A program made the translations under genes and the position numbers. Of a stretch of DNA of 64,000 bases, positions 2 to 51,300 are shown piece by piece; within the stretch, counting starts at the first letter, position 1, and each line of letters begins with the position of its first letter. Origin of the DNA: Selaginella tamariscina (taxonomy: Eukaryota; Streptophyta; Lycopodiopsida; Selaginellales; Selaginellaceae). A model generated the notes under the pieces. That model worked only from the letters and a program-made list of their open reading frames with translations, made no database searches and had not been told where the DNA came from. The stretch covers positions 86,923 to 150,922 of the forward strand of contig PUQB01000602.1 in the NCBI GenBank assembly GCA_003024785.1, in the 5' to 3' direction.

Positions 2-1411
2 AAGTTGAATGCAGATGGCTCCATCAATTGTCACAAAGCACGGCTCGTGGCACAGGGTTTCAAACAACAGTATGGCGTTGACTATCTCGAGACTTACTCT
101 CCGGTGGTAAAAATGATAAGCATTCGAATTTTACTTTCTTTTGCTGCTCATTTTGATCTTGAGATTCATCATACTGACATTAAAACAGCATTTTTAAATG
201 GAGATTTACTGGAAGAAGTTTATCTCCAACAGCCCGAAGGTTATGTTGTTCCTGGAAAGGAGCACCTTGTATGGAAACTCAAGAAAGCTCTTTATGGGCT
301 TAAGCAAGCATCGCGAGCTTGGTGGCAGAAAATTGATGCATTTTTCAAAGCGGACGGTTTCACACCCATTTCTCCAGAATCCAACGTCTACATTAAAAGG
401 GAAGGAAAGTTTTTACTTATAGTTGCTCTTTACGTAGATGATTCACTTTTGATTTGCAATAGCATTGATTATTTGAAGTGTTTTAAGGCAAAACTTGGAA
501 AGGTTTTTGCTATGGAGGATCTTGGGGAAGCACGGTATTTTCTAGGACTGGAGATTTACCGTGATAGGAAACGACGTCTACTTCATGTATCTCAACAACA
601 GTACTTGACCAAAGTACTTGAGACGTATGGCTATGCTGATTGCAATCCATCTCTTGTACCTATGGAACCTGGTAACATCAAGTTCTTAACCAAGGCTGAA
701 TGTCCTTCTAGCAAGGAGGAGCAACATGCCATGCAAAAGGTACCGTTTCGAAATCTACTTGGAAGTCTAATGTATGCTATGGTGTGTAGCCGCCCTGATT
801 TAGCCTACGTGGTCATTGCTCTTAGCCAGTTTTCCGCTAATCCAGGTAGAAAGCATTGGGACATGGCTAAATCGGTGATGCGTTATGTAAAGCAGACGCT
901 TGGTTATGGGGTGTTATACCAACCTAGCGAGATGTTCACGTTAACTGCCTACAGTGACAGCAGCTTGGCAGATGACCGTGACAGTTACAAGTCCACTACA
1001 GGTTTTTGTTTCCAGCTTGGAAGCAGTCTAGTTCTATGGAGCAGCAAGAAGCAAGTTCACGTTGCTCTCTCTTCTACAGAGGCAGAATACCTTGCTGCCT
1101 CTGCTGCCTCACGAGAAATTCTTTGGTTTCAGGATTTCCTTGGAGCTCTTGGCCAGGAAATATCACCAACCAAGCTTCATGTTGACAACAAAGGAGCTAT
1201 CGATTGGTGTAACAGTGAGGTAACACACTGGAAGTCTCGACATGTTGCCAAGCATTATCATTATGTTCGAGATTTGGTAAAAGCAGGATTGTTGAAAGTT
1301 GAACACATTTCTTCACGTCAGCAGCTTGCAGACATTTTCACAAGCCACTGGCCAAAGAATTATTTATTGAGCATCGGTCAGCAATTGGAGTCGTGGCAAG
1401 GCCTTGACTGA
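2..1411 (+). CDS. Ty1/copia polyprotein, C-terminal part (reverse transcriptase and RNase H)
   Basis: The reading frame is already open at the window edge, so the protein is partial at its N terminus; the nominal TTG start at base 5 is not a real start. It opens with the copia RT lead-in KARLVAQGF, followed by the RT motifs IKTAFLNGDL and GLKQASRAWW and the catalytic YVDD box (ALYVDDSLL). RNase H follows, with the usual STTGFCF, WSSKKQ and LSSTEAEY blocks. The enzyme copies element RNA into DNA in the virus-like particle. More than 1.4 kb has no frame break and the frame ends just before a polypurine tract and LTR, as in an intact Ty1/copia element. Gag, protease and integrase lie outside the window. 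Confidence 0.95.
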   Translation, partial: KLNADGSINCHKARLVAQGFKQQYGVDYLETYSPVVKMISIRILLSFAAHFDLEIHHTDIKTAFLNGDLLEEVYLQQPEGYVVPGKEHLVWKLKKALYGLKQASRAWWQKIDAFFKADGFTPISPESNVYIKREGKFLLIVALYVDDSLLICNSIDYLKCFKAKLGKVFAMEDLGEARYFLGLEIYRDRKRRLLHVSQQQYLTKVLETYGYADCNPSLVPMEPGNIKFLTKAECPSSKEEQHAMQKVPFRNLLGSLMYAMVCSRPDLAYVVIALSQFSANPGRKHWDMAKSVMRYVKQTLGYGVLYQPSEMFTLTAYSDSSLADDRDSYKSTTGFCFQLGSSLVLWSSKKQVHVALSSTEAEYLAASAASREILWFQDFLGALGQEISPTKLHVDNKGAIDWCNSEVTHWKSRHVAKHYHYVRDLVKAGLLKVEHISSRQQLADIFTSHWPKNYLLSIGQQLESWQGLD

Positions 1412-12918: not shown

Positions 12919-13068
12919 TATAAGATCCATGTATACGGCTGCATGTGCACATACTATTATTAGCGTAGTGGGTTTTGATAGCTGTCGGATTGGACCACTA
13001 ACTTTTGTATATAAGTTAAGGTTATTAAATTAATGGATATACACATTTCTATATTCCAAGCTCTCACA
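12919..13068 (+). repeat. 5' LTR of the split gypsy element
   Basis: It shares ATCCATGTRTACGGCTGC, GCACATACTAT and AGTGGGTTTTGATAGC with the 3' copy at 32173-32330. The LTR is short for Ty3/gypsy, about 150 bp. Its first dinucleotide reads TA rather than TG, and it ends CTCTCACA. Confidence 0.85.
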
Positions 13069-16000
13069 TTGGTGGAGGTGAGGGGCACCTCTAATTGTCC
13101 TACTGAGTGCTCGGATTTGTGTCTTTTTTATCGATTTTCTTTGTCTTCTTAGATTTAGATTTTCCATTGTCTAAATCTATTCATTTCTTATAGATTTTTC
13201 CTTTCTTCGTCCATGAATCCACAACACGCAAACCCTTTGTTTATGGAGTAGTTATTCATGCAGTTGTTGGATGCCATGCGGATGCAACTGAACAATCACT
13301 TTCAGTTGATGGTAGTATTCACAGTTCAGGATACTCCTCTTGCTCTGTTGCAAACCCTTGTGTCCGGCCGGATTTCTTTCGCGAAAATCTTGGAGATGAT
13401 GTGTACCATTAGTTTGATCATTTCACCGTGATTGCCACATATCATTCATGGGACGGTGCTCAGTGTTTGCACGAGTTTCCTACTTGTCTTCAAGGGACGG
13501 CATTGCAGTGGTACAATGGTTTGGACGTTGCAACTTGTGGAGATTGGAGTATTCTTTCAGAGATCTTCAAACGTACATTTGGGCATGCAGACGACTGTGA
13601 CGATGCTTTTCAGTAATTGCATCGTATTTGTCAGGAGACATCTGAGTTGGTGATGCAGTTTGGTGTTCACTTTTGGAGCCTTTTGCTGCGTGCAAAACCT
13701 AACATGTCGGAATGCATTAAGTTAAGTATGTTGTGACCAGCACTTTGTCAAGACCTTGTGGGGCTTGTGCATGCACTAGCTCCAAATGACTCTTGACGAT
13801 GCTTTGAGGTTGGCACAACGATATGAGTCGTCACCTCTCCCACTTGCACCTTCACGTTCTCTTGTTCCACTTTATGTTGGGGAGGACTTGCTCCGATGGA
13901 GGTTGATGCTGTTGCTGCTCATGTACCAGTACAAGGTTGGGCTCATGGATGAGGACGTGGATGTGCAGTTCGTTGTTAGGTGTGTGATGAGGTTGGACAC
14001 ACGTATCGGCGTTGTTAACGGGTTCCCAATTGGTGTCCCCCATTTTCAGGGTGGAGGCCATAGCGTCAACAAAGTTCAATTGGTGCCGATGTAGTAGAAG
14101 GTCATGATGCGGTGGATCTTTCGAGAAACGACGAATTGCACGAGTAGAGGGAGGTCCTTGTGCGAATAAATTAGTGATCCCTCCGTCTTTCTTTTGGGAG
14201 TATCATCAAGGGGTCCACTTGGCACCAGTTCATCCGGTCTTCACTTTTTAAGCTCAATTTAATCACACACCACGTCCTGTTTTCCTTTCAGTGTTGGTGG
14301 ATATAGGTTTGAGTTTATCCTTTATTTCTCAGTCTGTTGCTACACATTGTAGCCTTCATTTGCGTCATACAGTAGAACTAGTCTTTATTTTGTATAGCAA
14401 CGAACACACTCATGCTTGTTTTGCAGGATGAAGTTGACATTGTTGTTCGTGTGGATGATTGTGAGCTTAAGCTTCAATCTCTGGAGGTGGGTCGAGTCAA
14501 GCTTTTCACCTTATTCTTGGTATGGATTGGTTGACTCGTAATTATGCCAAGTGTGAACTTCGAAAAGTCTCCCCTCTATTTGACTCTCCCTCATCTTTCT
14601 TCAATTCCCCTTACTTTTATTCCACTTCGTTTATATGCTTCCACCTCTGTTTCACCTTTACTTCTAACCATTTTCCCTTCATGTTCCTCATTTCCCTCTC
14701 TAAATCCATCAGATGATTGTTGTGCTGTAGTCATTAATCAACTCAAAAAGGAGTATGCTGATCTTTTCAACTTTGACTTGTCATTTGAGGTCAAGATTGT
14801 GACACACCACTCTATTCCAACTGGGGATGCTAGGCCAATCAAGGTATCTATTCGGCATTGGTCACCAAAGGAGCTTAAGATCTTACGAGCGAATGTTAAG
14901 GATATGTTGGAGAAAGGTGTTATCCAAAAATCTTGAAGTTCTTAGGCGTGCAAACCTCATCTTGTGACAAAGCCGAATGGGAGTATTCAATTTTGCGCCC
15001 ATAACTATTTCAGATGTGTACCTACTTCCTCATATTGCAGACCTTTTGGATCGACTGGGGCAGAGCCATTGATTCACAAGTTAAATCTCGCCTCTGGATA
15101 TTGGCAAGTTTCGGTTTGAGCAATGCTCCAATGATTTTCCAGCGTATGATGGATGAGGTTCTTTGCGATATACCGGAGGTGACTGCCGACTTCATCGATG
15201 ATGTTTTAATTCACTCAGATGGAACGTGGGAGGAGCATGTCAGTGATGTACGCAAGGTTTTGGATCAGTTGTGGGAAGTTGGTTTGAAGTTGAAGCCATC
15301 TAAGTGTGTGTTTAGATTCAAGGACACCATTTATCTGGGTTATCACATTTCACGTGAAGGTTTGCAAGTCGATCCTGACAAACTAGTTGCAATTTTGAAG
15401 TTCCCTATGCCGAAGTGTGTGAATATGTGCAACGCTTTCTTGGAAAGGTACAATATCTGGGTCGTTTTGTGGATCATCTTTTGGATCGTACTGCACCATT
15501 GCAGATGTTGCTAAAGTTGTCAATGACTTCTTTTGTTTGGTCTAAGATTGCAAACAGGCATTTGCAGATCTCAAAGAGCTGTTGACGACTCCTCTAGTTT
15601 TGGCGTACCCGAATTACACTCGTCCTTTCATCTTACGCGTAGATGCTTTTGACATCGGTCTCGGGGGTGTATTGATGCAGGAGAGTAGGAATGTCTCTGG
15701 CCAATGACATCCTATTGTGTTTATCAACCATACCTTGCAACCAGCAGAGGTGAACTACTCCACGACAGAAAAGGAGTGTCTAGCAGTAATTTAGAAGCTC
15801 CATGCCTACTTGCATGGTTCTCAAATGTTGTTGGAAGGTGATCATGCAGCAGTCACTTCGTTGTTGAAGCAGAAGAATTTGATTGGGAGTATTGCTCGGT
15901 GGGCCTTAAAGCTTCAAATTTACGACTTTGAGGTTGTTCATTGCCCAGGGAGTTCCATGGCTGATGTTGATGTTCTTTCTTGAGCTCCTCTTCCACCTGT

Positions 16001-16268
16001 ATACAATAAGCAAAAGGCCATATAATTACCTTATTAAAATTAATAAATTATTAATTAATGTTTTCAAAACTTGCTCTTTTTTCTTTTGCCCCTGAGGAGC
16101 CAGTTGTTCTAGCATTAATGAACTTTTTGGACGAAGATTTTGTATTTTGTAACATCAGCAGTTGCTGTGCTTGATGTTTAGTGTCTTCAGAATGCAGAAT
16201 TAGATTTGCCATCTTTGGATGAGGTTCGGAAAGTTCAAAAGGTTGAGCCGTGGATTCAAAGGATGCAC
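13069..16268 (+). pseudogene. Gypsy gag-pol, 5' half (gag, RT, RNase H), broken
   Basis: Gag-type sequence appears at about 13428-13616 (LQGTALQWYNGLDV, IFKRTFGHADD). RT fragments follow, including ARPIKVSIRHWSPKEL, FGLSNAPMIFQRMMDEVL and FIDDVLIHSDG (a variant of the YxDD box), then YLGYHISREGLQVDP. RNase H-like sequence extends to about 15980 (a region encoding ADVDVLS before a stop). Several stops and frame changes interrupt it. Confidence 0.85.
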
Positions 16269-16289
16269 GTTGTAACTAAAGTGGGCATG
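16269..16289 (+). repeat. Left terminal inverted repeat
   Basis: It starts GTTGTAACTAAAGTGGGC and matches the reverse complement of 30797-30817 at 20 of 21 bases (G/A difference at position 13). It marks the exact point where gypsy sequence stops. Confidence 0.85.
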
Positions 16290-16550
16290 ATACGTGAAAA
16301 TGGGAATATAAAATAAATTACTAATTAATACTTAAGTTTTAATTATTAATTAATCATTTAATTAATATGTAATTAAGCCTTAAATATTAATTAATTAATT
16401 AATTAATCCTTCAATAACCTTACTTAGTAAGGAATATTCCTAAAATATCTTAGAATATTCATATTATTCTAAAAATAGTTTACAATAATGAAGAAATACT
16501 ATCAAACATAATTACAAATGAAATCATTTTCTTATCAACATGTTAATTTT

Positions 16551-17691
16551 TTATAAATACTTTCTTTCTATCATACAAAGAAATCTTTTCATTTTGTCTA
16601 AATCATCACTCTCCGGATTAATCAAATCATTTTGGTCAATATCTTGATGTTGTTGCCACCACTTAACACTCTCACGAATGCAATTGGGAGTTGCCATCCT
16701 TGTTAATACATAAGATGTGATAAGAGAGGTCTGCATAAAGGCTCATCTAAAAACTGACGTTCCTTAAGAATAATATTATAAAGCGCCCGGTTGCTATCCT
16801 TCATTTTATAAAATTCAATATCACGAGAAAGAAAAGCTTCAGGAAATGTATGATACGGTGGATACTGCTCACAAAAATTTTCGAGATTCTTCTTTCTGAG
16901 GCACGTATCCAAGTAGTTCACTAGCTCATCCATGATATCGGTATCAGAATATGGATCGAAAGTGATTGGATGAATACAAGCAATGTTTTGGTTGAGCATA
17001 GCCTTCTGAGGAGAGTCGTCTACTACTAAGATATGTGCATTCTTCGTTATCCTTAAGCGACTGATCTCCCCATGAGTCCCAATTATTCTTTCATTCTTGA
17101 AGAAGTATGGCTTGCTTTCCTTTCTTATATTGTGAAATTCGAGAGGTTTATAACACATTCGCTGGTCAAAAATCCAATCTTTACGAATCACCTCTTCTGC
17201 AACACTACAATGTTTCTTAAGTAAATCAACAGCGGTGTTAAGTTATGAATCTGCATGCATGACCAAATCCCCACAAGCGCACCCATCTCCTTAAGCTTTT
17301 GAAAGAGACGATCCAACCCTGGACGAAAAATAATATCATATCGAAATTTACCATGACAAGGAATGAAATCTCCTTGTTTGATTTCTGTTTTTCTATCCTC
17401 GGGCCTTTGTCGATGAAGCAGAACACCATTGACATCCAACAACACAATATGGCCATGAGTAACATGAGATAGCGTTGCCTCTTGAATACTTTGCAAATCA
17501 CTTGTTTGCTCCCTTTCACATTTATCCGTTGCCACTATTTCGTTGCCTATCCCTTCATCATTTAATTGTACATCATCCTTACAAGATTCAGATATTGCAT
17601 GCGCTGAAGAAATTGATTTCGGAATGAAGCCAATAAAAATGATGATGAAAAACTGAAGTGGCCCCCATGGTAACGATGTTTTGAGCTGCAT
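16551..17691 (-). CDS. FCP1/NIF-type HAD phosphatase-like protein carried by the element
   Basis: The N-terminal ~90 residues are variable and start with a hydrophobic stretch (FFIIIFIGFIP); an alternative ATG lies just upstream in another frame. HAD motif 1 reads LLDVNGVLLHR. The +2 residue is Asn rather than Asp, a form I recall in plant NIF-like members. FRPGLDRLFQKL and GIWSCMQIHNLTP follow, then after a frame shift LRITKNAHILVVDDSPQKA, the acidic VDD motif. The tail ends MCMIERKYL-like (FLCMIERKYL). Two breaks, near 17225 and 16710, are each fixed by one base (CC/CCC and TT/TTT). The family dephosphorylates proteins such as RNA polymerase II CTD; the role here is unknown. It is probably host-derived cargo of the element. 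Confidence 0.7.
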
Positions 17692-17994
17692 TATTATCCA
17701 TTTCCTGCATGAACTCTGTCATTCTGACATGTGGCACAAGAAATTGTCGCCAAACCCCTCTCTTACCTCATGGCAATGCTGAAAATCCATGTTCTCAATT
17801 ATTTCATTACATCTGCAAAATGATAATTAGCTGACCTTAAAATTATCAAGGTATATTATTTACCTTGTTAATGTGTGACCCATGTTTGAACTAAAAGCTT
17901 CATTAATCCTTGAGAATTTATTTTCTGTACAAATATAAAAGAAATATACAAAAATGCCTTATGTTACACTCATTTACAACTATTCATCACTCTA
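17692..17994. other. Spacer between the two minus-strand element genes
   Basis: About 300 AT-rich bases between the stop of the ParB/methyltransferase-like gene and the start of the HAD gene. It must hold the terminator of one gene and the promoter of the other. No clear motif was seen. Confidence 0.4.
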
Positions 17995-20900
17995 TCAATT
18001 CATTATCAATTCTTCTTCGCTATTACCTTCTGAGTGAGGCGAAGAAGGTCTAAGCCGCTTGTGAGATGGTTCAAGATCTTCTGCATCTTCTATTGATGTT
18101 TCCATGGGTCCTGGAGTGTGCGAATGTTCTGTACTCCTCGAGATAACTTCCGGTCTAATATCTGATTGAAGTTCGTTCTCAGACTCCGAGATTGAACCAG
18201 ATTCACCTTCAGAGCTATCGCACTTATCTGGAGGGAACTTTCTCAAATACGCCTTTATGGATCGTTGGGGTACTCAGTTGAGACCCAATCTATCCACTTG
18301 TTCAGGTCCTCAACCATGGTCTTATCCTTTCAACGGCAAACACACATGTATGCCGAAGGTAACACTCCTTCAAGACGGACCCCCTAGTGCAGTAGTCAAA
18401 AACCCACGCATCACTGTGAGGACCCCTGATCAAGTTGACGATGCTCCGTGCCGCTTGACTTGTAATGTTTGGATAACGTACATTGCCGAATACGTCACTC
18501 ATACCTATCGGTGTATCGGATGGAGGTTCAGGGCCGTTGGAGTGCAAACAGATGCCTGGCCAGTCATTTGGAAGCTTGAAATTGTTTGGCGCATTCCTAA
18601 CAACCAAGTGAACAACAGTATCAATGCACTTGGGATTAGCATCGTTCATATAAAATCCTGTCCAACGATGTCTATTCTTCTTGGCGAAGGCGAAGGCAAA
18701 AGTATCGGTGACATGAGCAAGAATCAAGAAATAAATACCTGAAAAAGTAGGTATCAGTGAAGAGCGCAAGCATGAATTCAATAATAAATACCTTCTATGT
18801 ATATGCTTGCACGGCTAAGTTTCTCCACCAGATCCTCTAGTGCCCTATCTGTCGAAAGATTTTTTGACACCCGCCGATCCATCACGAACAATTGAAACGG
18901 TTTCCTACAAGCAGTGATGTTACCCCATAAAGTCTCCGAATCTAACAACAAACATCTGTAGGGCTTGTCGTGATTCGTAGCATCCTCCTTTATAAGGTTC
19001 AATTCGGTTCTCCGCTGCTGAAGGACTGCCATAAGAGAAGGCGTCATCCCAATGTTCTCCTTTTTGGCGTTGGCATGCAATAGATTCTTGCCTAGATCTT
19101 CCGATTGGTTCACCCATTCGACAAGCATATCATCGTTCGTCACATGCAAATATTTGCTAACCTCTTCATATGTTGAAGTCGAGGTCCAACCCAGTTTGTG
19201 GCAGTGTATTCCCAACCACTCCTTGAAATGCCTGACCGTCTTCAACTCCATTGCCTTGAGATGAAAAGGAGAGGTTGGGCTGCTGTTATTAATTTGTAGT
19301 TTGCCATCGATCACCAAATCAGCCAAGACTTCCATCTCCTCCATCGTTGTTCCATTTAAAGGCTTCAACCATGTGAGCTTGAAATCGTTGTCTACATCCT
19401 TTGTAGATTGAACAGACTTAGCCTTCGGCGTCTTACTGGGTTTCTTTGCAGACTTTTCTGAGGGCTCCCCTTCACTTGTCTGCTTCTTCTTCAGTGTTCC
19501 TTTTGAAAAGGATTCCATAATCCCCAACCATTTGGCAAAGATCCTATCTTCGGGGCAAGAAATCAACAATCAGAAATGATGTTTCCTTCCCGCCCACCTG
19601 GGCAAAATCAACTGCTGCAATTTCTTCAACTCTCTGAGGAAAAGACAGATTAATATACCGGCGAGATAAATCCCGCCCAAACAATTTGCTTACCCGGTAT
19701 TCCGCAGATTGTGTATTCCCTGCGGTAGCTCTTTGTGGTCGCTCAAGAGATTCCCACACGGCTCGCGTGTGTTTAAACTTCTCCCATATTTTGCTGTTGT
19801 AGTGGTTGGTGTCGGCAGCGTCCCATTCCGCCGATAATTATGGTACTGCTCGATTGTGAGATTCGGCTTAGCTAAAAACGCCGATCTTTTTGTCAGCTTC
19901 TCACGGGTATGCTCGGAAAGTTTTGTTGCCATCGTTCCTTTGTTGTGTTCATCGAGAAGTCGTTGGGCTGCCGTTATTGTGTGCTGGCCACTAATGATGT
20001 AGTACTTGATAGATCTTTTATTCTCCGTCTGAATCTTCATGAGTTGTTCTGGTGTTGTGATCCAGACTTTGTCAGCACCCTTCCTTCTTTCATAGTATGG
20101 ACACAAAACAGCATTATGTGGAACGGTATAAGAATTGTCGTCCTTCATCTTCTCCATGAGCTCAGCTACACGTTCCTGGTTGAGTGGCCTGTAATTGAAG
20201 TTTGGGTTGACGCTGCAATATTTAACCCTACAAGGATAAATCTTATCATCCAACATCATTTCCTTGTGACTTATTGCAGCATGAGATGCCACAGGTGCAG
20301 CTGACAAAATGATTGATGATTTTCTTTTGCGATCCGAATCAACATGTGTGATCCCCGACTGCAGCTGTTCTAGTGTTCTCGGCACACTCCTCCAGCTCCC
20401 GAAGCTTCCTAAGCAAATTGAACGTGATCTGTAGAGAACCTGAGACCGAGCCACCTTCTCAATCTCCCTTATGATGTCGCTGTGTTCTTCTTCAATGTGA
20501 AGAGGGACGATTGCTCCACTTGCTGATTTTCTGTATTGTGAAGCAATATCTCCTGACAATACACCTACTCGATGAGTCTGAAGATCTTCGAAGTAGACAT
20601 CCAGATGGATCCCCTCCATAGATGGGCTTTCGTTGAGTTGAAGAAGAACTCCAAGGTCAACATCATTAGTGAACACGTGAACATCATTATCCACAAGTCG
20701 ACAAAACCACCCGAGATTAATGTTGTAACTGACGACCTCTGGATCCGAGAACGTGACATTGGATGGAACAAGGCATATCTGTCGAGCATCGTCCAATCTG
20801 GGTTCGCAGCCTGCTTTCGGGTGCTTGACTAGCGAATCTACTTTCCATTGTTTTGCTTGTCCATGAGATGTGACAGAGGTTAATTTGACAGCAACCATGG

Positions 20901-21133
20901 TTGCTCCAATGCGCTTCCCATTTATCTTAAAATATGGCCAAGTTGATTCCAGAATCCCCCTGCCCATCTCTTCTCCTGCTCTTGTCTTTAATGTCACCTC
21001 AATTCCACATCTGAATACAAAAATGATTAGTTCAAGTATCCGAGTATAACAGATTTTATTTTAATTCTTACCCAGAATTTGACGACGACTCCATACTAAT
21101 GACTCGATCTCCTTGTTTGATCAAATCGTCCTT
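17995..21133 (-). CDS. ParB/sulfiredoxin-like and methyltransferase-like element protein
   Basis: Minus-strand exons: 21133-21072, 21010-19694, 19633-18792 and 18738-17995, with GT-AG joins; a further 5' exon is likely. The N terminus (LIKQGDRVISM, RIGATMVAVKLTSV) resembles the start of the element's transposase. Mid-protein it reads YRPLNQERVAELMEKMKDD and then YYIISGQHTITAAQRLLDE, which fits box I and box II (GxHR-like) of the ParB/Srx fold. The last third has WVFDYCTRGSVLKEC then FAVE, resembling motif I of permuted DNA methyltransferases. The place expected for the DPPY box reads LLLDSETLWG, so activity is doubtful. The C-terminal tail is acidic and Ser-rich (SEGESGSISESENE). One in-frame TGA lies at 19570-19572, and single-base losses near 18315 and 18252 are apparent. 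Fold calls are by motif reading only. Confidence 0.5.
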
Positions 21134-21235
21134 CTGCAAAATAATACACTATCAATATAAATTATATAAAACGCACACACACTTGTATAAACCCGAATAT
21201 ACAAAAATAATACACAGAGAGAAGTAGACGTAATT

Positions 21236-21322
21236 AACTGTCCGAAGCTCACATTTGTGTTAGTGCAAAAGAAAGATAACATTTCGTTTTAGAACCACCA
21301 CAAATGTGAGCTCTGGACAGTT
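21236..21322. repeat. Hairpin-forming inverted repeat upstream of the ParB-like gene
   Basis: Arms 21236-21259 and 21299-21322 pair at 22 of 24 positions. Both contain AGCTCACATTTGTG or its complement, and the outer ends are AACTGTCC/GGACAGTT. The loop is 39 bases. It could be a small foldback element, a small-RNA precursor or a regulatory stem. Confidence 0.75.
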
Positions 21323-21432
21323 TTACATAGATTCCTAGCTTTTACTCGAAATATTATGATAAGATGATAAAAGTAAATAAAATGAGATATGCAACTTATA
21401 TATACTAATACACATATATATTCACATGAAGG

Positions 21433-22465
21433 TGCGGCGGGATTAATCTCGCCACCCTTCAATGCCTCCTGAAAGAGTGGGCGGGATTAATCTCGCCACC
21501 TTTCTGGAGGCCTTAACGGGAGTGCGGAATTAATCTTGCCACCCTTCTCAGGTCTCAGAGAGAACTGGGCAGGATTTATTTCTCACACCCCTTCAGTGAC
21601 TCCAGAAAGGAGGCGGGATTAATCTCGCCCACCATGTAAGTGATGGTTAAATGAATTTCCCCACCCTTCCCAGTTCTCTCCATTGGTATGTTGAAAACCT
21701 TCTACGTCTCAGACAGAAACGTTTGGGATTGGTCCGACTCACCAATGGAGAAAAAGGAAGGGTGGCGGGATTCATTCCTCCAACAGGCATTGAAGACTCG
21801 GCGGATTAATCCCGCCGCCCAGGGCCTTCACTCGGTCCCTATGCGGCGGGATTAATCCCGCCGGACGCCAATTCCCTGCGCGGAATCGCGGGATTAATCC
21901 GCCGCCTAGGCACTTCAGAAAGGCCAATGGCGGCGGGATTAATCCCGCCCGATTCGAGCAGGGAATTGGCGTCCGGCGGGATTAATCCCGCCTCCCAGGC
22001 CCTTCACTCGGGCCTTAGTCGGCGGGATTAATCCCGCCGAACGCCAATGCCCTGTGCGAAATCTTGCGGGATTAATCCCGCCGCCTAGGCCCTTCAGGCA
22101 GGCCAATGGCGGCGGGATAAATCCCGCCCGATTCCGCGCAGGGCATGCGTACGCGGCGGATTAATCCTTCACACAGGCCATTGCCGGCGAGATAAATCCC
22201 GCCGCATTCCGCGCAGGGCATGGATGAGCGGCGGGATTAATCCCGCCGCCGAGGCCCCTCACGCAGGCTATGGCGGCGGGATTAATCCCGCCGCTCTTCG
22301 GTTTGTCGTAGAGCGGCGGGATTAATCCCGCCGCCCATAGCCTGCGTGAAGGGTCGGCGGCGGGATTAATCCCGCCGCTCACCCATGCCTGAAGGGCCTC
22401 GGCGGCGGGATTAATCCCGCCGCCATGGCCCCAACTATATAGCGGCGGGATTAATCCCGCCGCTC
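21433..22465. repeat. Palindrome array 1 (GGCGGGATTAATCCCGCC)
   Basis: Ten exact copies of the 18-bp palindrome start at 21845, 21932, 21975, 22021, 22230, 22275, 22315, 22359, 22404 and 22444. About ten diverged copies lie among and to the left of them. Spacing in the well-kept part is mostly 40-46 bp. Copies decay toward the left (21433-21800), for example CGGGATTAATCTCGCC. Spacers are GC-rich and themselves partly repeated (AGGCCCTTCA, GCCAATG). The array lies upstream of the leftward genes. Confidence 0.95.
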
Positions 22466-22479
22466 GAGGGGCTTGCGAG

Positions 22480-23665
<1,186 letters not shown>

Positions 23666-24028
23666 GTGCACAGCCGCCGCCGCCGATTTCACAGCCGCCG
23701 CCTCTTGAAACCCTAAGAATATACCTAAACCCTAAAGGAATTAAATATATATATCAACCCTAATAGAATATTCCTTCTGAGAATATACTTAAACCCTAAA
23801 AAGAATAAAATATAGATTCGCCCTAAACGAATATTCTTTCATTATATTATTAGCGCGTGCGTGTGTGTGGGTGTATCACATACACCTCAAAAATATAAAT
23901 CATGCAGGGATTTAACATGTGTGTGTCCATGAGAGTGTTAAAGTTTCATGTGTACACATTGCATATATTAATACACATAATATATACATACACACGTGTA
24001 TACACACAGACATACACACATATTACAT

Positions 24029-24056
24029 GGGTTTAGGGTTTAGGGTTTAGGGTTTT
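24029..24056 (+). repeat. Interstitial telomere-type repeat, tract 1
   Basis: About four TTTAGGG units (GGGTTTAGGGTTTAGGG...), ending in a variant GGTTTTGG. It lies inside the TIR element. Confidence 0.9.
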
Positions 24057-24059
24057 GGA

Positions 24060-24420
24060 TTTAGGATGGATCATGCATGGTGTGTATGTATGAGAGAAGA
24101 GAGAGTGTTGAAAAATTATTTTTGTACACATTGCATATATTAGTACACATATATACTTACACATATTATACACAGATATACATACATAGTATATGAGAGA
24201 AGAGAGACAGTACATATTAATATGGATCATGCATGGTGTGTATTATACACACAGACATACATACATATTAGTACATAATATTAGAGAGACCGAGTACATA
24301 TTATAGATCATGCATGGTGTGTATGTTTGAGAGAAGAGAGACAGTACATATTAACATGGATCATGCATGGTGTGTATGTATGAGAGAAGACAGAAAGTAC
24401 ACATATATACATACAGAGTA
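24060..24420. repeat. Short dispersed repeat built on GATCATGCATGGTGTGTAT
   Basis: The phrase GATCATGCATGGTGTGTAT starts near 24068, 24226, 24307 and 24360. It is usually followed by GAGAGAAGAGAGA and a GTACATATTA tail. No coding potential. Confidence 0.75.
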
Positions 24421-24495
24421 CACATATATACATGCACACGTGTATACACACAGACATACATACATATTACATGAGTAAATTCATTGTGTTACATA

Positions 24496-24539
24496 TTAGG
24501 GTTTAGGGTTTAGGGTTTAGGGTTTAGGGTTTAGGGTTT
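24496..24539 (+). repeat. Interstitial telomere-type repeat, tract 2
   Basis: Six near-perfect TTTAGGG units in a row, ending TTTC. Same orientation as tract 1, about 440 bp away. Confidence 0.95.
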
Positions 24540-24797
24540 CTCCCAACAAGCTTAATATAAATATTACACATGTAAATTCAATGTGTTACATATACACAGA
24601 TTGAGTACATATATCATACATGCGTTGAACATGATGTTTTCAATAAAGAAGCAACATTTTCTTCAGTTTGGTTTAGGGTTGTGCATGTGTGTGCATATGT
24701 GTTTTTGTAAGTTCTTGTAATGCGTGTGTAAATTTATGATTGTGTTTATATATGTGTGCAAAACAAACATCGAATAATTAAGAAAATAAAATTAATA

Positions 24798-25512
24798 AAC
24801 ACACTAGGAACATATTTTAAATTATACATAATAATATATGATTTTATCTAATATATAGCCATATATAGTTTTAATAATATATATTAATTTAATATTGATA
24901 AAAAGGTTTAACATTGAAATATTCTTGAAATAATAAGAAATTAATTGAGAAAATCCCATTAATATATACAAATGTAAATTAAGTACTCAAATAATTAACT
25001 AAATTAATTATCATAATCATGTTTAATATTGGAATATTCTTGGAATAATAAGAAAATAATAAAGAATATCCCATTAATATAAAGAAGATTAATTACTCAA
25101 GTAATTAAGGAAATGATATTAATATATATATTATTAAAACTATATATGACTATATATTAGATAAAATGATGTATTATTATGTATAATTTAAAATATGTTC
25201 ATAGTGTGTATTAATTTAATATTGATAATAAGGTTTAACACATGAATATTCTTGAAATAATAACAAATTAATTGAGAAAATCCCATTAATATATACAAAT
25301 GTAGAATAATTACTGCAATAATTAAGAACAAGACTAATTTAATTATGATAATCAGGTTTAATATTAGAATATTCTTCAAATATTAATAAAATATTAAAGA
25401 ATATCCCATTGATACTAGGAAATGAAAACTAAATACTCGAGTAATTAAGAAAATAATAATAATAAACAGACTATGAATATATTTTAAATGATACATAATA
25501 ATATATCAATTT
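24798..25512. repeat. Nested AT-rich duplication with alternating orientation
   Basis: A ~90-bp segment at 24800-24890 (CATATTTTAAATTATACATA...) recurs inverted at about 25120-25207 and direct at about 25465-25510. Between them lie two direct copies, ~320 bp apart, of a block containing ATTCTTGAAATAATAA and GAGAAAATCCCATTAATAT. A related block with AAAGAATATCCCATT is also present twice. The pattern is segment, block, inverted segment, block, segment. Confidence 0.75.
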
Positions 25513-26134
25513 ATTTATTGTATAAGTATATATTTATATATATATATAATATAAATATACTTGAATACTAAGAATGTAGAATATAGTCTAAAATTTCGTA
25601 ATATTAAACAGCTTGAATCACTTGAATAACATTAAATGCAATTTTAAAATACTCATTGGAACTGGAGAGTATATATGTCAGAGTGTCGGATATTTGTGTC
25701 AACTCATCTTAAATTTTATTTTCTGTTCTTTTTAAAAATTTGAATTTCTGACATATGTATTGTCGGTCTGACATGTAAATTTGAAAATGCATTTAATTTC
25801 CCACTCAAATTCAGATCTGGTTCTTTCTCCGGCAAGGGTTTCTTCATTTCTGTATTTTTCACTCTTTAGATCTTCTTTTTTCTTCATAGTGATCATCTCA
25901 GGAGCGAGATTAAATTGGGTGCTATTCTTTATAGGAAAGCACGGCGCCTTCAGTGCTGTTTACAAGTAAGTATTATAAACAAATTTAAAAATACTTATTA
26001 AGATTCACTCTCTTACATTCTCTCTTAAAATTACAATTTAGGGGTTTAGAAATGCATTAGGATTATAATATATTCCGTTAGGGATTTATCACGTTTAAAT
26101 ATCCTTTTAACTTAATATTCTAGGTTAACCGGGG
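25513..26134. other. Possible promoter and leader exon of the transposase-like gene
   Basis: After an AT-rich run, 25780-25965 is pyrimidine-rich and ends in a strong splice donor (TACAA|GTAAGTATT). The transposase frame at 27197 opens right behind an acceptor (TTATGTGCAG|GACAAT). This suggests a leader exon spliced across palindrome array 2. Only splice consensus supports it. Confidence 0.3.
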
Positions 26135-27048
26135 CGGCGGGATTAATCCGGCCATTTCTTTTTCGCCTCTTTGAAGAAGTGGCGGGATTAATCCCGCCAC
26201 CATCTCCCGGGCAATGCTTCTCCGCCACTGAAAAAGAGTGGCGGGATTAATCCCGTCGATAACCTTCTCAACTGATGAAGAGTTACCAGAATTTATTAGA
26301 AAGAGTTGTCGGCGGGATTAATCCCGCCAACCATTTTAGGAGGCAGGGAAGGGGTGGCGGGATTAATCTCGCCACCACTTCACTGTTTTAAAGATTTGGG
26401 GACAGGATTTATCCCGAGATCTCTTTGAAATCATAGTTTTGGAGAGAGTTATGTGCGGGTTTAATCCCGCCACCCATTCCCCGTCGTAAGAATTGTGGGC
26501 GGGATTAATCCCGCCTTGGACTCCCTCCGACAAGGAAGAGCCGGCGGGATTAATCCCGCCGCCTCTTCCTCCGACGAGGAAGGGAGTCCGGCGGGATTAA
26601 TCCCGCCGACTCTCTCCGGCGAGGATGAGTCGGCGGGATTAATCCCGCCGGACTCCCTTCCTCGTCGGAGAGAGTCGGCGGGATTAATCCCGCCGGACTC
26701 CCCCCGAGGAGGAAGAGGCGGCGGGATTAATCCCGCCGGCTCTTCCTTGTCGGAGGGAGTCCAAGGCGGGATTAATCCCGCCGACTCTCTCCGAAGGGGT
26801 TGAGTCGGCGGCGGGATTAATCCCGCCGGACTCCCTTCCTCGTCGGAGAGAGTCGGCGGGATTAATCCCGCCGGACTCCCCCCGAGGAGGAAGAGGCGGC
26901 GGGATTAATCCCGCCGGCTCTTCCTTGTCGGAGGGAGTCCAAGGCGGGATTAATCCCGCCGACTCTCTCCGAAGGGGTTGAGTCGGCGGCGGGATTAATC
27001 CCGCCGACCGTTCCTCGTCGGAGGGATTCGTGGGGGATTAATCCCGCC
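26135..27048. repeat. Palindrome array 2 (GGCGGGATTAATCCCGCC)
   Basis: Fourteen exact copies start at 26181, 26311, 26498, 26543, 26590, 26632, 26677, 26720, 26765, 26810, 26855, 26898, 26943 and 26988. Diverged copies lie mainly at the left edge and one at 27032. Spacing in the core is 42-47 bp. Spacers differ from array 1 and use GACTCCCTTCCTCGTCGG and its inverted form. The array ends about 150 bp before the transposase-like frame. Confidence 0.95.
26651..27006. repeat. Exact 178-bp tandem duplication within array 2
   Basis: 26651-26828 and 26829-27006 read identically, each with four palindromes. Perfect identity indicates recent amplification or gene conversion. Confidence 0.9.
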
Positions 27049-27202
27049 CATCAGTTGTATTAATCAAACATGAGATATTATCTCTAAACATAATTATGTA
27101 TTATTGCATATGCATATTATTAAGTAACCGTAATTCAGATTTCTTAAAAATATTGCATAAACAGATATCATAAATAATACAATTATTTATGTGCAGGACA
27201 AT

Positions 27203-30200
27203 ATGTTTAATACTGGAGATAAAGTATGTCTTCTTCGGAACAACGAGATAGTTGGCACTGGAACTGTGGAAGTTCGAGATAATAATGCATCATGTCACAA
27301 TATTTCCCAAGGATCTTGTGTGTACGTATGGGTGAACACCATTTTCAAGCATGTTGAGGTTCTGGGAATGGAATTTGAGGAGGGTTCTCCTGTATTGTGG
27401 AATTTGGATGAAGTCAAGGCTGACACAAAATATGCAGAGTCACAAACAAATAGTAGCACGAGTTTACCAGATGATGGCTTGCCTGCTGTGATGGATGAGG
27501 TGATTCTCTTTCTTCGTGAGATTGAAGTCGGAAGAGGCATCATCACAGCTATAAATCCAATGGAAGCAGTGTCAGAAGAGAAACTAGGGTCCGACTTCGT
27601 GGGTGTAGTTGTGACAGAGGTTTCACCTAATGGCACATTGTATCCTGGATCCCTCGTGAGGTGGCGAACATCTGAATTAAGACGGCAAGATGGTTCAACA
27701 TATTCTGGGTTGGATTTCAATAATAACAACCCGGAAGAACAACTCATATTTGAAGAGGTTCCTTGCATTGGTCCTATTGTAAGAAAAAGGCGATTCATGG
27801 GTTGTAGATCTTCCCCTGCAAGTTTCAGCAAGAGGGTAAAGATGGATCCTACATCTTCCGAAAGTGTTACGAGCATTTCCACGATTGACTGTTGCAAGAA
27901 GAAGTGTTGTCAGATGGCAGACCGGAATGAAATTACCCAATGTAGACATGTCTTTCGTATGCTCACCCAAAAGCAAAGGCATGAGTTTGTATATGCTGCA
28001 CTAACTGGGTGTATTGATGGAATGGCCTCGGACACAGGTTATCAGAGTACATCCATGGTATTTAATAAGGTGGCCATCTGCTTCAAAGCTTGGTACAGTA
28101 TATACGGGATCCCAAAGACCACGTTCTACCGTCGGAGGGATGAGTGGCTAGATGGAGCGCGAACCTCAGTTCATGGGAACACTGCTTGGTCAAAACCCGC
28201 TCTCACATCATGGCAGCCATAGAGATACTCAAGGCTTTTGTGGAAGCAAATGCAGACAGGATGCCTCACAAATGCCGAACCACAAATGCAGGGGTCAGGG
28301 AAAATCTCAAGGTTTTACCTTCAATCTACACTCAATTGAAACTGTGTGAACATGTGAACAAGTGCCTCAGTTTGATGGGGCTCCAAGCAATCTGCACTGG
28401 TACCTTCAACAACATATGGAATACTCATTTTAAGGATGTGGAGATTGCAAAACACTCTAGCTTTTCTAAGTGTGACACTTGTACATCATTGAAGGCTGCA
28501 GAGGCTTGTGCAAAAACCTTGGTGGAGATCACTACCATTCAAAGGAAGATGGAGGCCCACATGATTGCACAACAAACTTGTCGGTCTCAGTACTATGCAC
28601 ACCGCATGCTTTCTGTGTCACGCCCATCAGAGTACTGTGCTTGATCCATGACAAGATGGATCATTCAAAGACCAGCATTCCAAAGCTCTTTGCAACACCA
28701 AAGTGCCTTGGAAATGTCATGAAACTTCCGATTTCTTTAACAGGTGTGCTAACACATGGACACGGTTGTGAGTCATATGGACACTTTTCACTTCCACATT
28801 GGTCTAGCGACTCCAATTTCACTATTGGGTCGTTAGCCATGTGTTTCAGAAACCTTGAAGCCCACTCACAGACAAATCCTATCAGTGATCTCAAAGTGAA
28901 GAAACAACACCTTCAACCTTTACATAATGCTCTCATGAACACGTCTGCACTTGAGGCTACTTGGGAATATGAGAGGCATTGTCAGCAACCTGCACAAAAA
29001 ACAGATGGCCCTGTTGAGAGTTCAGGTTCAGTGGAGGGATCTAGCTCAAATAGTGTACATGTGTCCTCAACATCAAATAAGCTTCCTCGTCATTTGCTTT
29101 TACAGATGGATAATTGTGCAGGCGAGAACAAAAATAGGTAAATCATTTTACTTAAGGGTTTCTCAAGCTCATACTTACTTTTATTTTCTAGATATGTGCT
29201 AGCATACTTGTCAATGCTTGTTGCCAAAGGTGTGTTTGAAACAATCACGCTCAGTTTCCTTATGGTTGGTCACACTCATGAAGATATTGATGCGTTCTTC
29301 AGCAAGGTCTCCAACTCTACAAAAAGGACAAGTGCACTTACCTTACCGCATATGATGAATCTTTTTGAAAATTGCATCTCCAAAAAAAGTTGTGCTTTGC
29401 TTGTGACTGAGGTGCCAGACTTCAAAAAATTTCTCAAGGAGTATATAAAAGAAGGGAGTGATTCTTTAGTTGGTCACCTTGTGCCGCTACAATTCTTTTT
29501 CTCCATACGAGATGGTATACCTATTATGCAGTACAAGTTACGGCCATCAGAGCAGGAGTGGTTACCGAAAGAGGGCTTAATGCTCTTCAAAAGTGGAGAG
29601 GATGGAAAGCCACTTCTCCCAGAAGGACAACCAGACCCTATTCCATTGAGTGCCCAGCTCAAGGAACAAGAGGTTATTATTGATGGCATCAAAAAATATG
29701 TGGCATGGGTTCAAAAATCGATGCCAAAGAATTCTGATAAGGCAACTGGTTACTCAGAACTATATAAGCATGTGGTCAACTATTGGGAGACTGTTGTTCG
29801 AGAGTTGGAAGGGCCTACTGTCACAAGTACAGAATTGCAACACCCTTTCTGGCCTAAAACAAGGTGGCGAGAGGAGATTGAAATGACATCACTGAGCACA
29901 GACGACATAGAAGCCAGTAGTGATGTGGAAGTGCAAACCCCACACTTTGTTGGACAAAGGAACCAAAAACCTAAAGCATACTTTGATTGCTGCAAGGATC
30001 TTCAAAAACTAATGATGGTTCTCATTACTCCAGATGCGTCATATAATCAGCCTATTTGGATGGGTCAAATTATCGACACACCTGAAGTAATCACAAAAAA
30101 TAGTATTGTTAAGGTTGCATGGTTCAAACCACAAAAAAGGCGACACGAGAAGGAGAGCGAAAGATATAATGGATGCCTAGAGAAAACATGGTCTCCCAAT

Positions 30201-30320
30201 CAAAAAGACCCAGCATGTTTTATAAATGTTAAATCCATTCGATATGGGTGGATGTCAAGAAGCGTTGATAAAGTCACGATTAACAAAACTGCAAGGGAAT
30301 GTATGTTTTCTGAAGCTTAA
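27203..30320 (+). CDS. Transposase-like protein of the TIR element (DUF7869-like)
   Basis: First in-frame ATG at 27203; the frame is open back to an acceptor at 27196. The N terminus (NTGDKVCLLRNNEIVGTGTV, CVYVWVNTIFKHVEVL) resembles the regulatory N-terminal domain of plant CACTA-type transposases. A Cys/His region (CDTCTSLKAAEAC) follows, then the RNase H-like core: LPHWSSDSNFTIGSL, LLLQMDNCAGENKNR and FLMVGHTHEDIDAFFSKV. A 54-bp intron (29138-29191) lies exactly between ENKNR and YVLAYL. Two breaks, near 28195 (AAAA/AAAAA) and 28632, each need one extra base. By motif it belongs to the group I recall as DUF7869, found in mosses and some animals. DNA-cutting activity is inferred from its place inside matching TIRs. 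Confidence 0.7.
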
Positions 30321-30796
30321 AGCAATTACAAAATTATAAAATATCATATATTTAATATTCATAATTATTATAAACTCTTTAATAATAGTACCAAATTGTA
30401 TACTTAACTATATAAATTTAAAAAATGATATGGAAGATTGACTATATTATTATAGGATTTTATATATATTATTACTACTACAAATTTTTAATTAATAATG
30501 TTATATTTAAATATTAATATTTTAATAACAACATCAATATTTATATAATGTACCTCTTATGCTCTTCCTTAATTGTTATATTAGGCAATATATTATATAA
30601 TTTAATACATTCTACTTTTTAATGTTATTAATTTTTGTTCAATGAATGCTATAATTTATTAAAGGGTAAATACAAAATAGAATATTCTAAAGAATATTCT
30701 CTTTTCAAACATATATTCTAAAGAATATTCCTTTAATATTAGAAAATGCTAATTAAATAGCTAAAATTGCTAATTATTAGGAAATGGGACTATAGC
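30321..30796. other. Right subterminal region of the TIR element
   Basis: AT-rich, with two AGAATATTC motifs (30682-30732) that echo the left subterminal region (16440-16480). It probably holds the transposase-like gene's 3' end. Confidence 0.5.
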
Positions 30797-30817
30797 CATG
30801 CCCATTTTAGTTACAAC
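30797..30817 (-). repeat. Right terminal inverted repeat
   Basis: CATGCCCATTTTAGTTACAA plus a final C, the inverse of the left end with one mismatch. Gypsy sequence resumes immediately after it. Confidence 0.85.
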
Positions 30818-32172
30818 TTGAATAAGGCTTCGTGATGGGTTTGAGAATCCTACATTACTTGTTGATGACTTGCTTTTCAGGCATTTACATTCGCAATAGC
30901 GTGTTCAGGACGACCTTTTCTTGGGAACTGATCCAAATGATCATTTGCGGTTGGTAGTGCCTTCGGTCTTCATTCCACGCTTCCCTCCATGGTTACCATG
31001 ACTTGGCGGGCACATGGGTCATCGTGTGATGGAGAAGCTGCATAGATCTTTTTATTGGCCGGAGTTGCGAGAAGATGTGATTCGGTATGTGCATAACTGT
31101 GTGTGATGCCAAGCTCGCAATACTCCCCCATGTGCTTCGAAAGGATGGTTGGAGTCAATTGTAGTTTCATGTCTGTTTTGAGTTGGTGGCATTGATTTGA
31201 TGGGACCTTTTTCACGGTCAACTGCTAGCAACAAAGTAATTATTATTGCTTCTGATTACTTAATTCATTGGGTAGAAGTTGGTGCTCTGCTAGTGTGATT
31301 GCTTCTGCTATTGGTCAGTTTCTCCTTAATCAGGTTGTGTTTCAGCATTCTTGTCCAGAGCGAATTCTCTCGGACAATGGTCCTGGCATTTATGGCTGAG
31401 ACATTTCATGTTTTGATGTTTTGACTAGGGATACGCTACACTTTTTACAAGTACTTATCATCCTCAGATAGATGGTTTGGTGGAACGGCTCGTCAAAACC
31501 TTCAAGGGGATGATCGCGAAGTATGTGAACTTTCAACATTCGGATTGGGATGGTTATCTGTCATCTCTCCAATATGCTTATGTCATTAGAGTACAAAGTT
31601 CCATTGGTACTTCCCCATATAAGCTCTTGTATGGTCATGACCCGGTGTTGTCGACGGAGTTGGGTTTGTCTTTTCGATTACCATGAGCTGCTAATGCTAG
31701 GTCGTGGAATCAGTATCTGACAAGCATTCTTCCATTGGTTCATGCGGAGTCAATAGAACACTTGGGCAACATACAAGTAAGACAACAACAACGCTACAAC
31801 TCGCATCATCGTTCTCTGTGTGGAGTACAAAGTTGATGAACTGGTGTTGGTTTTGTTTTCCCAAGCTTACGGTAAATTTACATATAAACATTGATTAAAC
31901 ACTTACGTGTTTAGTTAAGAGTCTCCTTCCTCAGTGGAAAGGACCGTATCGAGTGCTACGGCAAGTAGGGCCGCAGGTTTATGAGGTTCGACACGACATT
32001 CAGCCCGACCCTCCAGAGATTGTACATATGCAACGGTTGAAGCGTTTTGTGCAACGGGAACAAGTTGTGCCACCTACAAATCCACCAGTGCCTCCTCTTG
32101 ATGTTCTTCAGATTTGGGCCCATTTACCATAGAACCCTAACCAACTTACATCCTTCCGAGATGAGGGAATGA
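30818..32172 (+). pseudogene. Gypsy pol, 3' half (integrase and C-terminal tail), broken
   Basis: The integrase zinc finger is visible as GHMGHRVMEKLHRSFYWPEL then VHNCV and a stop in place of Cys before CQ. Core fragments include LVERLVKTFKGMIAKYV and SSIGTSPYKLLYGHDPV. The C-terminal part reads LPQWKGPYRVLRQVGP and IVHMQRLKRFVQREQVVPP. Stops and frame changes are frequent. It continues the 13069-16268 half. Confidence 0.85.
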
Positions 32173-32330
32173 TGTAAGATCCATGTGTACGGCTGCATGT
32201 GCACATACTATCATTAGCATAGTGGGTTTTGATAGCCGTCGTATTGATTTTAATCTGAACCACTTGCTCTTGTATATAAGTTAGGGTCTTGAACTAATGG
32301 ATACACATTTCTATATTTCGAGCTCTTACA
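32173..32330 (+). repeat. 3' LTR of the split gypsy element
   Basis: Starts TGTAAGATCC after a purine-rich stretch (GATGAGGGAATGA) and ends AGCTCTTACA, a proper TG...CA unit of 158 bp. It matches 12919-13068. Confidence 0.85.
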
Positions 32331-49900: not shown

Positions 49901-50285
49901 AGAGTGTGGCTGGAGTTGAAACAGCTGGGAAACTGTTCATGAAACGTTCTCTCCAACCAGGATCCACCAACTCGATCCACGGCAAACCAAGGATAATCGT
50001 AGAGTCTGGAATAGAAACAACACTGAAGGAGATGTTGCACATAACACCGCAAGCAATGACCTCAGCGAACTCCATGTCATTTGTTACCGCTCCAGATTTG
50101 ATGTCTCGTCCATCAACGACCCGTACAGAACCAGGAGTCTTCAAAGGATGTAGACGGATCCCGTGCCTGACAATAAAATTCTTGTCGATGAAATTTGCGT
50201 TCACTCCGCTATCCACCAAAGCTTTACTAGAGAACTCCACCTCTGGTGTCTTCAGCTGCACCGAAACATGGAACGGCTTGCACAC
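46957..50285 (-). pseudogene. Gypsy element 3 pol (protease, RT, RNase H, integrase, C-terminal tail)
   Basis: Minus-strand order: retropepsin-like ALVDSGVNANFID (50285-49821), and RT with [20 protein letters not shown] and [13 protein letters not shown] (49805-48805). RNase H follows with FVEADAFDFAIGGVLSQEG, then integrase with [30 protein letters not shown] and [19 protein letters not shown]. The tail reads FTIGDQVWLLWHHW and IHPTWEPAAHLVHAPN, a chromodomain-like end. Blocks sit in several frames with few other defects. Confidence 0.9.
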
Positions 50286-50386
50286 CTTCGTGGATGGAAT
50301 GGATCCAAGATGAGGAAGGGAAGATGTTATGAGTGAAGAGCCTTGAGGAACATGAGTTGTTCCATGGCAATCCAGCCGGACGACTC

Positions 50387-51300
50387 CTATTCGGGCTGGA
50401 TCTTCTCGTTTCCCGGCAGCACAGCAAGGGCCACTTCACGAGCTTGTTTTGGACGTCGATGACAATTCTCCAACTTGTGGTACGGGTCCCCACAATACAA
50501 ACAAAGCTTGTACTGAATCCGCTTCTGACGTTCGGTTGGCAAAAGCTTGCCTCGGCGTGATCGCCCTAATTCCATCGGGGATGGTTCTACTGAGGAAGAT
50601 GATGAATTAGCAGATGAGGGAACAGGGACTGCAGAAATGGAAGAAGACGGCATCAAGAAGAAAGAAGGATGCCGACGTTCTTATTTCCGCTCGATCAACC
50701 GATTGTCACAACAAATTGCCAACTCGATCATGCTGGTGAGGGTTTCTGAAATCGCAAAATTCAGCAACATGTCTTTGACCTCGTCCTGCAACCCTGACCG
50801 GAAAACCTCCTTGAGAGCACGATCTCCCCATGTGACATCACAAGCAAGAAGTTGAAACTTCGATGCGTACTCTGCTACCGACATACCCCCTTGGTGAAGT
50901 TGACGGAGTTTGGTGATGGCAGCACTCTCACGATCCACGTCACTAAACATCGCCGTGAACCGTTCCACAAACTCGTCAAAATTCCCAAGGATCGGATCAT
51001 TGTTCTCCAGCAAGGCTGAGAATCATGAAAGCAGAACCAGAAAGCAACGACCCGATCAATCCAACTTTAATGGGTTCTGTGCTGTAGCGCCTTGGCTGCA
51101 TCACGATCCGCAGATGAACTTGATTGAGAAAACCTCGGAACTTTGATCGGGTACCATCGAACTTTTCGGGCATGTTGATCTTCGGCTCTGGAGAATTCTC
51201 ACGCTGTCAGAGCTGATCATTCTCCAGGTGTAGTTGTTTGAGCTACTGTTGGAGGGCAGCAACTTGCTCATGAAGAGCATGCTCAGACATGATGAATCGA
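50387..51300 (-). pseudogene. Gypsy element 3 gag with zinc knuckle
   Basis: The gag core has FDEFVERFTAMFSDVDRESA, KLRQLHQGGMSVAEYASKF and VFRSGLQDEVKDMLL. A CX2CX4HX4C knuckle follows (CLYCGDPYHKLENC) near 50480. Frame changes separate the core from the knuckle. Confidence 0.85.

Follow-up and report, generated by a model that had tools for sequence, protein, structure and literature searches.

A large terminal-inverted-repeat transposon with accessory genes and palindrome arrays, nested in a gypsy-type element of Selaginella tamariscina

The general layout of giant DNA transposons that carry accessory genes is known from algae. In the brown alga Ectocarpus, as described in the passages of PMC12477816 considered here, giant KDZ, EnSpm, and Sola-1 elements carry such genes, and their transposase genes are frequently pseudogenized. 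One of these elements, Sola1-1_Ec32, is 21.5 kb long and holds, on the opposite strand, a 1104-aa gene with a ParB-like and an N4C/N6A methyltransferase part. This class of accessory proteins has been suggested, in the same passages, to bind and modify its own element. Iyer 2011 and Petroll 2025 are cited there for transposons of green and red algae with ParB-methyltransferase genes and for giant EnSpm elements of red algae. In plants, the passages of PMC10741241 and PMC9033089 considered here describe Sola elements as having a DDD transposase, 4-bp target-site duplications (TSDs), and terminal inverted repeats (TIRs) of 11-1124 bp, with some elements exceeding 15 kb, and report them from the moss Physcomitrella. 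Here, we analysed a stretch of 64,000 nucleotides of Selaginella tamariscina (hereafter, the window; NCBI GenBank assembly GCA_003024785.1, contig PUQB01000602.1, positions 86,923 to 150,922 of the forward strand; coordinates below are counted from its first base). It contains an element of 14,549 bp (16269-30817), which we found to be a large TIR transposon that carries accessory genes and lies within a gypsy-type element; this conclusion is well supported. Going further, we consider it likely that the element is a class II DNA transposon with a DUF7869 transposase, accessory genes, and palindromes acting as sites for a protein dimer, in a copy that is probably inactive.

The left end of the element, GTTGTAACTAAAGTGGGCATG (16269-16289, plus strand), is mirrored by the right end, GTTGTAACTAAAATGGGCATG (30797-30817, minus strand), with 20 of 21 positions identical (consensus GTTGTAACTAAA(G/A)TGGGCATG). 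A match scan of the whole window, allowing up to three mismatches, returned these two 21-bp ends only, and the mean number of matches in 100 shuffled sequences was 0. In 150 control pairs of positions, drawn at random with the same spacing of 14,549 bp, the best inverted 21-mer within 60 bp had 16 matching positions, versus 20 at the real ends. These repeats lie exactly where one gypsy-type (Ty3/gypsy) element is interrupted, as the initial annotation had claimed. Indeed, a pair of long terminal repeats (LTRs) flanks the block, at 12919-13068 and 32173-32330 (both plus strand; located by blastn and alignment, with ends set by eye at TA...CA and TG...CA, respectively). The two LTRs align with 131 matches, 16 substitutions, and 14 gap columns, and this direct repeat was the sole match at 1e-5 between the left and right sides of the window (blastn, dust on). 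The bases beside them, AATTT and ACTTT, are identical at four of five positions and may be the target duplication of the gypsy copy. The left flank contains a reverse transcriptase (RT) fragment (15005-15514, PF00078, 2.8e-15); the right flank, from 30818, appears integrase-like by eye, and its Pfam matches, including rve_3 (0.19), were all below threshold. When the flanks are joined, one frame spans the junction, reading ...VEPWIQRMH before it and LNKAS after it, with a stop five codons later. Because the LTR pair lies outside and the frame of the flanks continues at the junction, the block is an insertion within the gypsy copy and the younger of the two.

The transposase-like gene annotated at the right end of the element (27203-30320, plus strand) was confirmed. 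It starts with an ATG at 27203; a 54-bp intron is predicted at 29138-29191, and the frame appears to be broken twice, near 28.19 and 28.64 kb. Read by translation across both breaks, it matches DUF7869 (PF25273) with 9e-47 and 159.6 bits, versus a cut-off of 26, and the uninterrupted open reading frames (ORFs) alone match the same family with 1e-26 and 1.1e-13. Pfam describes DUF7869 as a domain of unknown function, and a search of the openly licensed literature found it named in no paper. The protein carries the motifs DKMDH, MDNCAGEN, and GHTHEDID, the first ~150 residues from the second and the second 39 or 41 residues from the third; the three motifs, with the two relatives described below, place a probable DDD triad of RNase-H-like catalytic type.

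Relatives of the transposase were found in contigs of GTDB. A codon-pattern scan for GHTHED[IV]D returned 15 loci, two of which were related to the transposase by tblastn (L016, 1.9e-10; L014, 7.4e-7), and the remaining loci gave E-values of 0.3 or worse, or no match. Both relatives retain motifs two and three, with a distance between them that differs by one residue, and both are short contigs binned as Bacteroidetes; they are probably eukaryotic contamination of metagenome-assembled genomes. In L014, the DUF7869 gene adjoins a gag-like ORF in which a zinc-knuckle-like motif was seen by eye. The transposase core had no match among phage sequences by tblastn and none in PDB at E<=10, and searches of IMG/VR with a motif and with a protein pattern gave no DUF7869 relative. 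A match to TNP1/En/Spm was weak (0.14) and not significant. Structure models built without alignment were poor, with predicted local distance difference test (pLDDT) scores of 44.2 and 36.9, and that of the transposase core was too poor for a fold test.

On the opposite strand, nearest to the left end, the annotated HAD phosphatase gene (16703-17718, minus strand) also held up. Read across one apparent frame break near 17.23 kb, it matches the NIF/FCP1 type (PF03031 NIF) with 1.1e-11 and 45.1 bits, versus a curated cut-off of 21.8; the uninterrupted halves reach 0.00021 (21.5 bits) and 0.027 (14.6 bits), just under the Pfam cut-off. The usual active site of the NIF/FCP1 type is DxDx(T/V). The second Asp of this site is absent from the present protein, which reads LLDVNGVLL (DVNG), with Asn at that position; thus, the phosphatase is possibly inactive or a DxN variant.

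Upstream of the phosphatase lies a long divergent gene (18302-21100, minus strand) with several exons, apparent frame breaks, and a weakly ParB-like middle. Its initial label, ParB/methyltransferase-like, fared less well than the others: the ParB part is weak, and the methyltransferase part was unsupported by every profile tried. We used a profile of 14 ParB domains from phage and plasmid records, and a second one made from the three ParB-methyltransferase fusions among them. With the ParB profile, a 122-residue segment scored 4.4 bits, a value reached by 21 of 3000 shuffles, and the whole protein scored 0.9 bits, reached by 16 of 500. With the three-sequence methyltransferase profile, 493 of 3000 shuffles scored at least as high as the real segment, which leaves this domain unsupported. 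No ParB or methyltransferase family was found for the protein in Pfam, NCBIfam, or PHROGs, and searches gave no phage tblastn match and no meaningful PDB match. A PDB listing with 3e-8 consisted of designed repeat proteins matched through many weak pieces and was discarded as not meaningful. A possible degenerate methyltransferase-like end seen by eye, with a possible D-x-x-x-x-G-S motif after DRRV where DPPY is usual, was not counted. The tblastn search of the ParB-like protein against 16 loci gave nothing better than an E-value of 6, and the ORF at 19690-21060 had no relative in the genome-contig search. Overall, the divergent protein is possibly ParB-like.

A weak shared stretch, with 12 of 37 residues identical, was seen between the N-terminal region of the transposase (27203-27700) and the start of the divergent protein (20.8-21.1 kb). 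Its value of 2e-04 comes from a two-sequence comparison without composition correction, and we place no weight on it; the two N-terminal regions are possibly one shared domain.

Two arrays of one palindrome, GGCGGGATTAATCCCGCC, lie between the divergent gene blocks, in agreement with the initial annotation. Array 1 (21436-22461) and array 2 (26136-27048) hold 20 copies each at up to five mismatches, and a solitary copy with two mismatches lies at 19660-19677, within a short intron that was predicted by eye in the divergent gene. In total, 24 copies are exact, and all 41 copies found in the window at up to five mismatches are inside the element; 20 first-order Markov shuffles contained none at up to three mismatches. 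The copies are regularly placed, with a pitch of ~45 bp (median 45, from intervals below 80 bp, 35 copies), and in 17 of them the palindrome extends to 20 bp. Conservation is confined to the core: across the 39 array copies (of 40) that have no more than four mismatches, its columns hold 1.24-2.00 bits, and none of the 14 columns flanking it on either side exceeds 0.49.

The spacers between palindromes behave differently from the palindromes themselves. Leaving out intervals of at least 65 bp (three in array 1 and one in array 2), and without the copy at 21523 as a boundary, related spacers (score of at least 0.5) were 4 direct and 6 inverted among the 105 pairs of 15 spacers in array 1, and 15 direct and 18 inverted among the 153 pairs of 18 spacers in array 2; no shuffled pair out of 26,400 reached this score. 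In array 2, one spacer, read as its reverse complement, is identical to two others, and the spacer orientations look as if the segments between palindromes had been inverted repeatedly. Since spacers are inverted about as often as direct, it is the palindrome, and not the spacer, that stays fixed. A palindrome is blind to orientation, so exchange at palindromes can flip spacers and leave the site unchanged. A fixed palindrome with flipped spacers would look like symmetric binding sites under selection, with duplication also contributing. Indeed, array 2 contains a perfect tandem duplication of 178 bp (26631-26808 and 26809-26986), from which it follows that this array probably expanded recently.

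As regards their position, one array sits in the 5' region of each divergent gene block, probably inside a first intron, as predicted from splice signals recognized by eye. For array 2, these are a donor-like GTAAGT at ~25.97 kb and an acceptor-like GTGCAG directly before the ATG of the transposase; for array 1, they are TTTTGCAG, which resembles an acceptor and precedes the first clear exon of the divergent gene, and, near 23.66 kb, a donor-like GTGAG preceded by AG. In the arrays, the observed/expected CpG ratio reaches 1.04 and 1.11, compared with 0.41 for the transposase gene, 0.74 for the long divergent gene, and 0.60-0.69 for the flanks. Since CpG is part of the palindrome and the array-1 spacers alone give 0.73, the CpG excess of the arrays is only suggestive. 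A plasmid search with array 1 gave no match. The palindrome occurred in one IMG/VR contig, which we judged a chance match.

These features can be combined into the following reading. A class II element of 14,549 bp would have inserted into an already resident element of gypsy type. Its DUF7869 transposase would cut at the inverted repeats of 19-21 bp and paste the element elsewhere, possibly with a 4-bp duplication, and the opposite-strand genes, for the NIF-type phosphatase and the weakly ParB-like protein, would be accessory. The palindromes would be bound by a dimeric protein, likeliest one encoded by the element (the transposase or the ParB-like protein), and this protein would govern the expression or the marking of the element at the regulatory regions of both gene blocks. 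Of this reading, the analysis establishes the ends, the nesting, the families of the transposase and the phosphatase, and the arrays with their conserved core; cut-and-paste movement, the TSD, the splicing pattern, and the binding partner of the palindromes are inferences. A narrower version makes the arrays a parS-like self-recognition device: the element's own ParB-like protein would load on the ~40 palindromes and mark or insulate the element against host silencing. We regard this version as quite unlikely; if true, it would offer a candidate DNA target for the published proposal of self-binding accessory proteins.

Several observations weigh against this picture of a class II transposon with protein-bound palindromes. 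The phase scan of the element ends found no perfect TSD. A 4-bp candidate, ACGT on the left (16267-16270, plus strand) and ACTT on the right (30816-30819, plus strand), is a weak match of three positions out of four, and it implies 19-bp TG...CA ends; the in-frame empty site that it leaves is identical to the one obtained without any duplication. Other phases match similarly (TGCA and TGAA, three of four in a 4-bp phase, and a 5-bp phase with four of five), so the candidate alone is not significant. Moreover, both the ends and the TSD rest on a single copy of the element. The ParB label of the divergent gene is no better than noise in a ranking control: among the 98 window ORFs of at least 90 aa (64 of them reported), the segment's own ORF came third, with 1.7 bits versus 4.6 and 1.8. 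Part of the identity within the arrays is due to recent tandem duplication. In 270 comparisons of spacers from one array with those from the other, the top score was 0.48 (21454 versus 26329, inverted), a value that none of 200 shuffles reached, which means that the arrays may share an origin; the second-best score, 0.33, was reached in 32 of 200 shuffles. Finally, frame breaks are apparent in all three genes. Unless these are errors of the assembly, this copy is probably inactive and would depend on a helper copy. The initial annotation had interpreted the element as large, autonomous or recently autonomous, and equipped with cargo or accessory genes: its TIRs, its nesting, and its accessory genes stand, and its autonomy is what the frame breaks speak against, long as the transposase gene is and well as it matches its family.

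The identity of the element could also be narrower than we propose. It might be a giant transposon of the Sola1 superfamily, a land-plant counterpart of Sola1-1_Ec32 whose accessory gene, of the ParB/methyltransferase kind, lies on the strand opposite the transposase, which is plausible, if short of an even chance. Layout and size class are similar to those in the relevant passages of PMC12477816, and the DDD transposase, the 4-bp TSDs, and the occurrence in Physcomitrella given for Sola in those of PMC10741241 and PMC9033089 are matched here by a probable DDD triad and a candidate 4-bp TSD with three positions of four. However, the methyltransferase was undetected at the level of shuffled sequences, the ParB match is weak, the TSD is imperfect, and the likeness is one of description. 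The opposite suggestion, that the block is a non-autonomous composite that took up genes of the host, or else a virus-like element that integrated, instead of a transposon with its own transposase, seems very improbable to us. Capture from the host is conceivable for the NIF phosphatase gene, but the transposase domain is strong, and the phage and IMG/VR searches described above gave no relative of it. Nor was a viral hallmark found: six ORFs had no PHROGs match below 0.1, eukaryotic virus proteins not having been searched as such.

Two further explanations concern the palindromes. The arrays may be satellite-like sequence, grown by slippage and inversion within introns and without a binding role. 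The 178-bp perfect duplication in array 2, the related and inverted spacers inside each array, and the pair 21454/26329, with its hint of a shared origin, would all agree with such growth, yet the 18-bp core is nearly fixed where the spacers diverge, the core is common to both arrays where the other inter-array spacers are at the level of shuffles, and a solitary copy stands distant from both arrays. We find this explanation rather unlikely. Alternatively, the palindromes could be sites of a host transcription factor driving two divergent promoters, a role suggested by the location of an array in the 5' region of each gene block. The half-site GGCGGGATT is presumably near an E2F-type site, with one mismatch to the consensus; this likeness is inexact, and the ~40 sites far exceed what would be expected for a promoter. 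Thus, we consider a host factor unlikely as the reason for the arrays.

Between the arrays lies an A+T-rich centre (22470-26100) with TG/TA microsatellites, TTTAGGG/CCCTAAA motifs, and a foldback; it presumably holds the divergent promoters. The foldback (24799-25209) has arms of 86 nt, 95% complementary and 239 nt apart, and may be a smaller nested repeat. The plant telomere-type motifs are mostly at ~23.7-24.7 kb, and the element holds 10 of the 13 window copies of TTTAGGG and 3 of the 7 of CCCTAAA. Another short word, GAATATTC, has 13 copies in the window, 10 of them inside the element: five are central and five near the element ends (16432, 16453, 30680, 30692, and 30723), where they are possible subterminal sites. 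Just upstream of the divergent gene, at 21237-21330, a short hairpin resembling a miniature inverted-repeat transposable element has arms of ~24 bp by eye. The region 16000-31000 gave no Rfam match at gathering thresholds.

Elsewhere in the window, we noted a second gypsy-type element, different by eye from the interrupted one (47829-50435, minus strand; RT at 48805-49452, 2.3e-32), and, at the window start, an ORF of 469 aa that appeared Copia-RT-like by eye (2-1408, plus strand). Genes of the window included a bHLH gene (9.4e-07) and one with a separase TPR match (2e-34), which, with the TTTAGGG motifs, point to a plant host.

The initial annotation had stated that no plant DNA transposon with this layout was described. 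Searches of the openly licensed literature gave, among the matches listed, no land-plant element that combines DUF7869 with a NIF phosphatase and palindrome arrays; a similar layout has nonetheless been published for Sola1-1_Ec32, and the green and red algal cases are cited in the same passages of PMC12477816. Like Sola1-1_Ec32, as described there, the present element is a giant DNA transposon with a long accessory gene opposite the transposase. Unlike it, the element has a weak ParB likeness and no detectable methyltransferase, and it carries a NIF phosphatase and two palindrome arrays; the word starts "palindrom" and "phosphatase" are absent from the main text of PMC12477816. With the plant Sola elements, compared by description only and as far as the passages considered here portray them, it shares a DDD transposase, here probable, and a TIR length within 11-1124 bp, and it differs from them in having no clear 4-bp TSD. 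The accessory genes and the ParB/methyltransferase theme also recall the giant EnSpm elements of red algae and the ParB-methyltransferase transposons of green and red algae, as these are cited in PMC12477816; unlike in the giant EnSpm elements, the transposase here is DUF7869. It has been proposed that accessory proteins of giant eukaryotic transposons bind and modify their own element, with the DNA target unnamed in the published passages considered here. What looks new in this locus is its palindrome arrays: ~40 near-identical palindromes, inside the element ends and beside both gene blocks, are a testable target of this kind. DUF7869, a Pfam family without a function, is now tied to an element whose ends are delimited, and the combination of a giant transposon and a divergent accessory gene, described in algae, is extended to a land plant.

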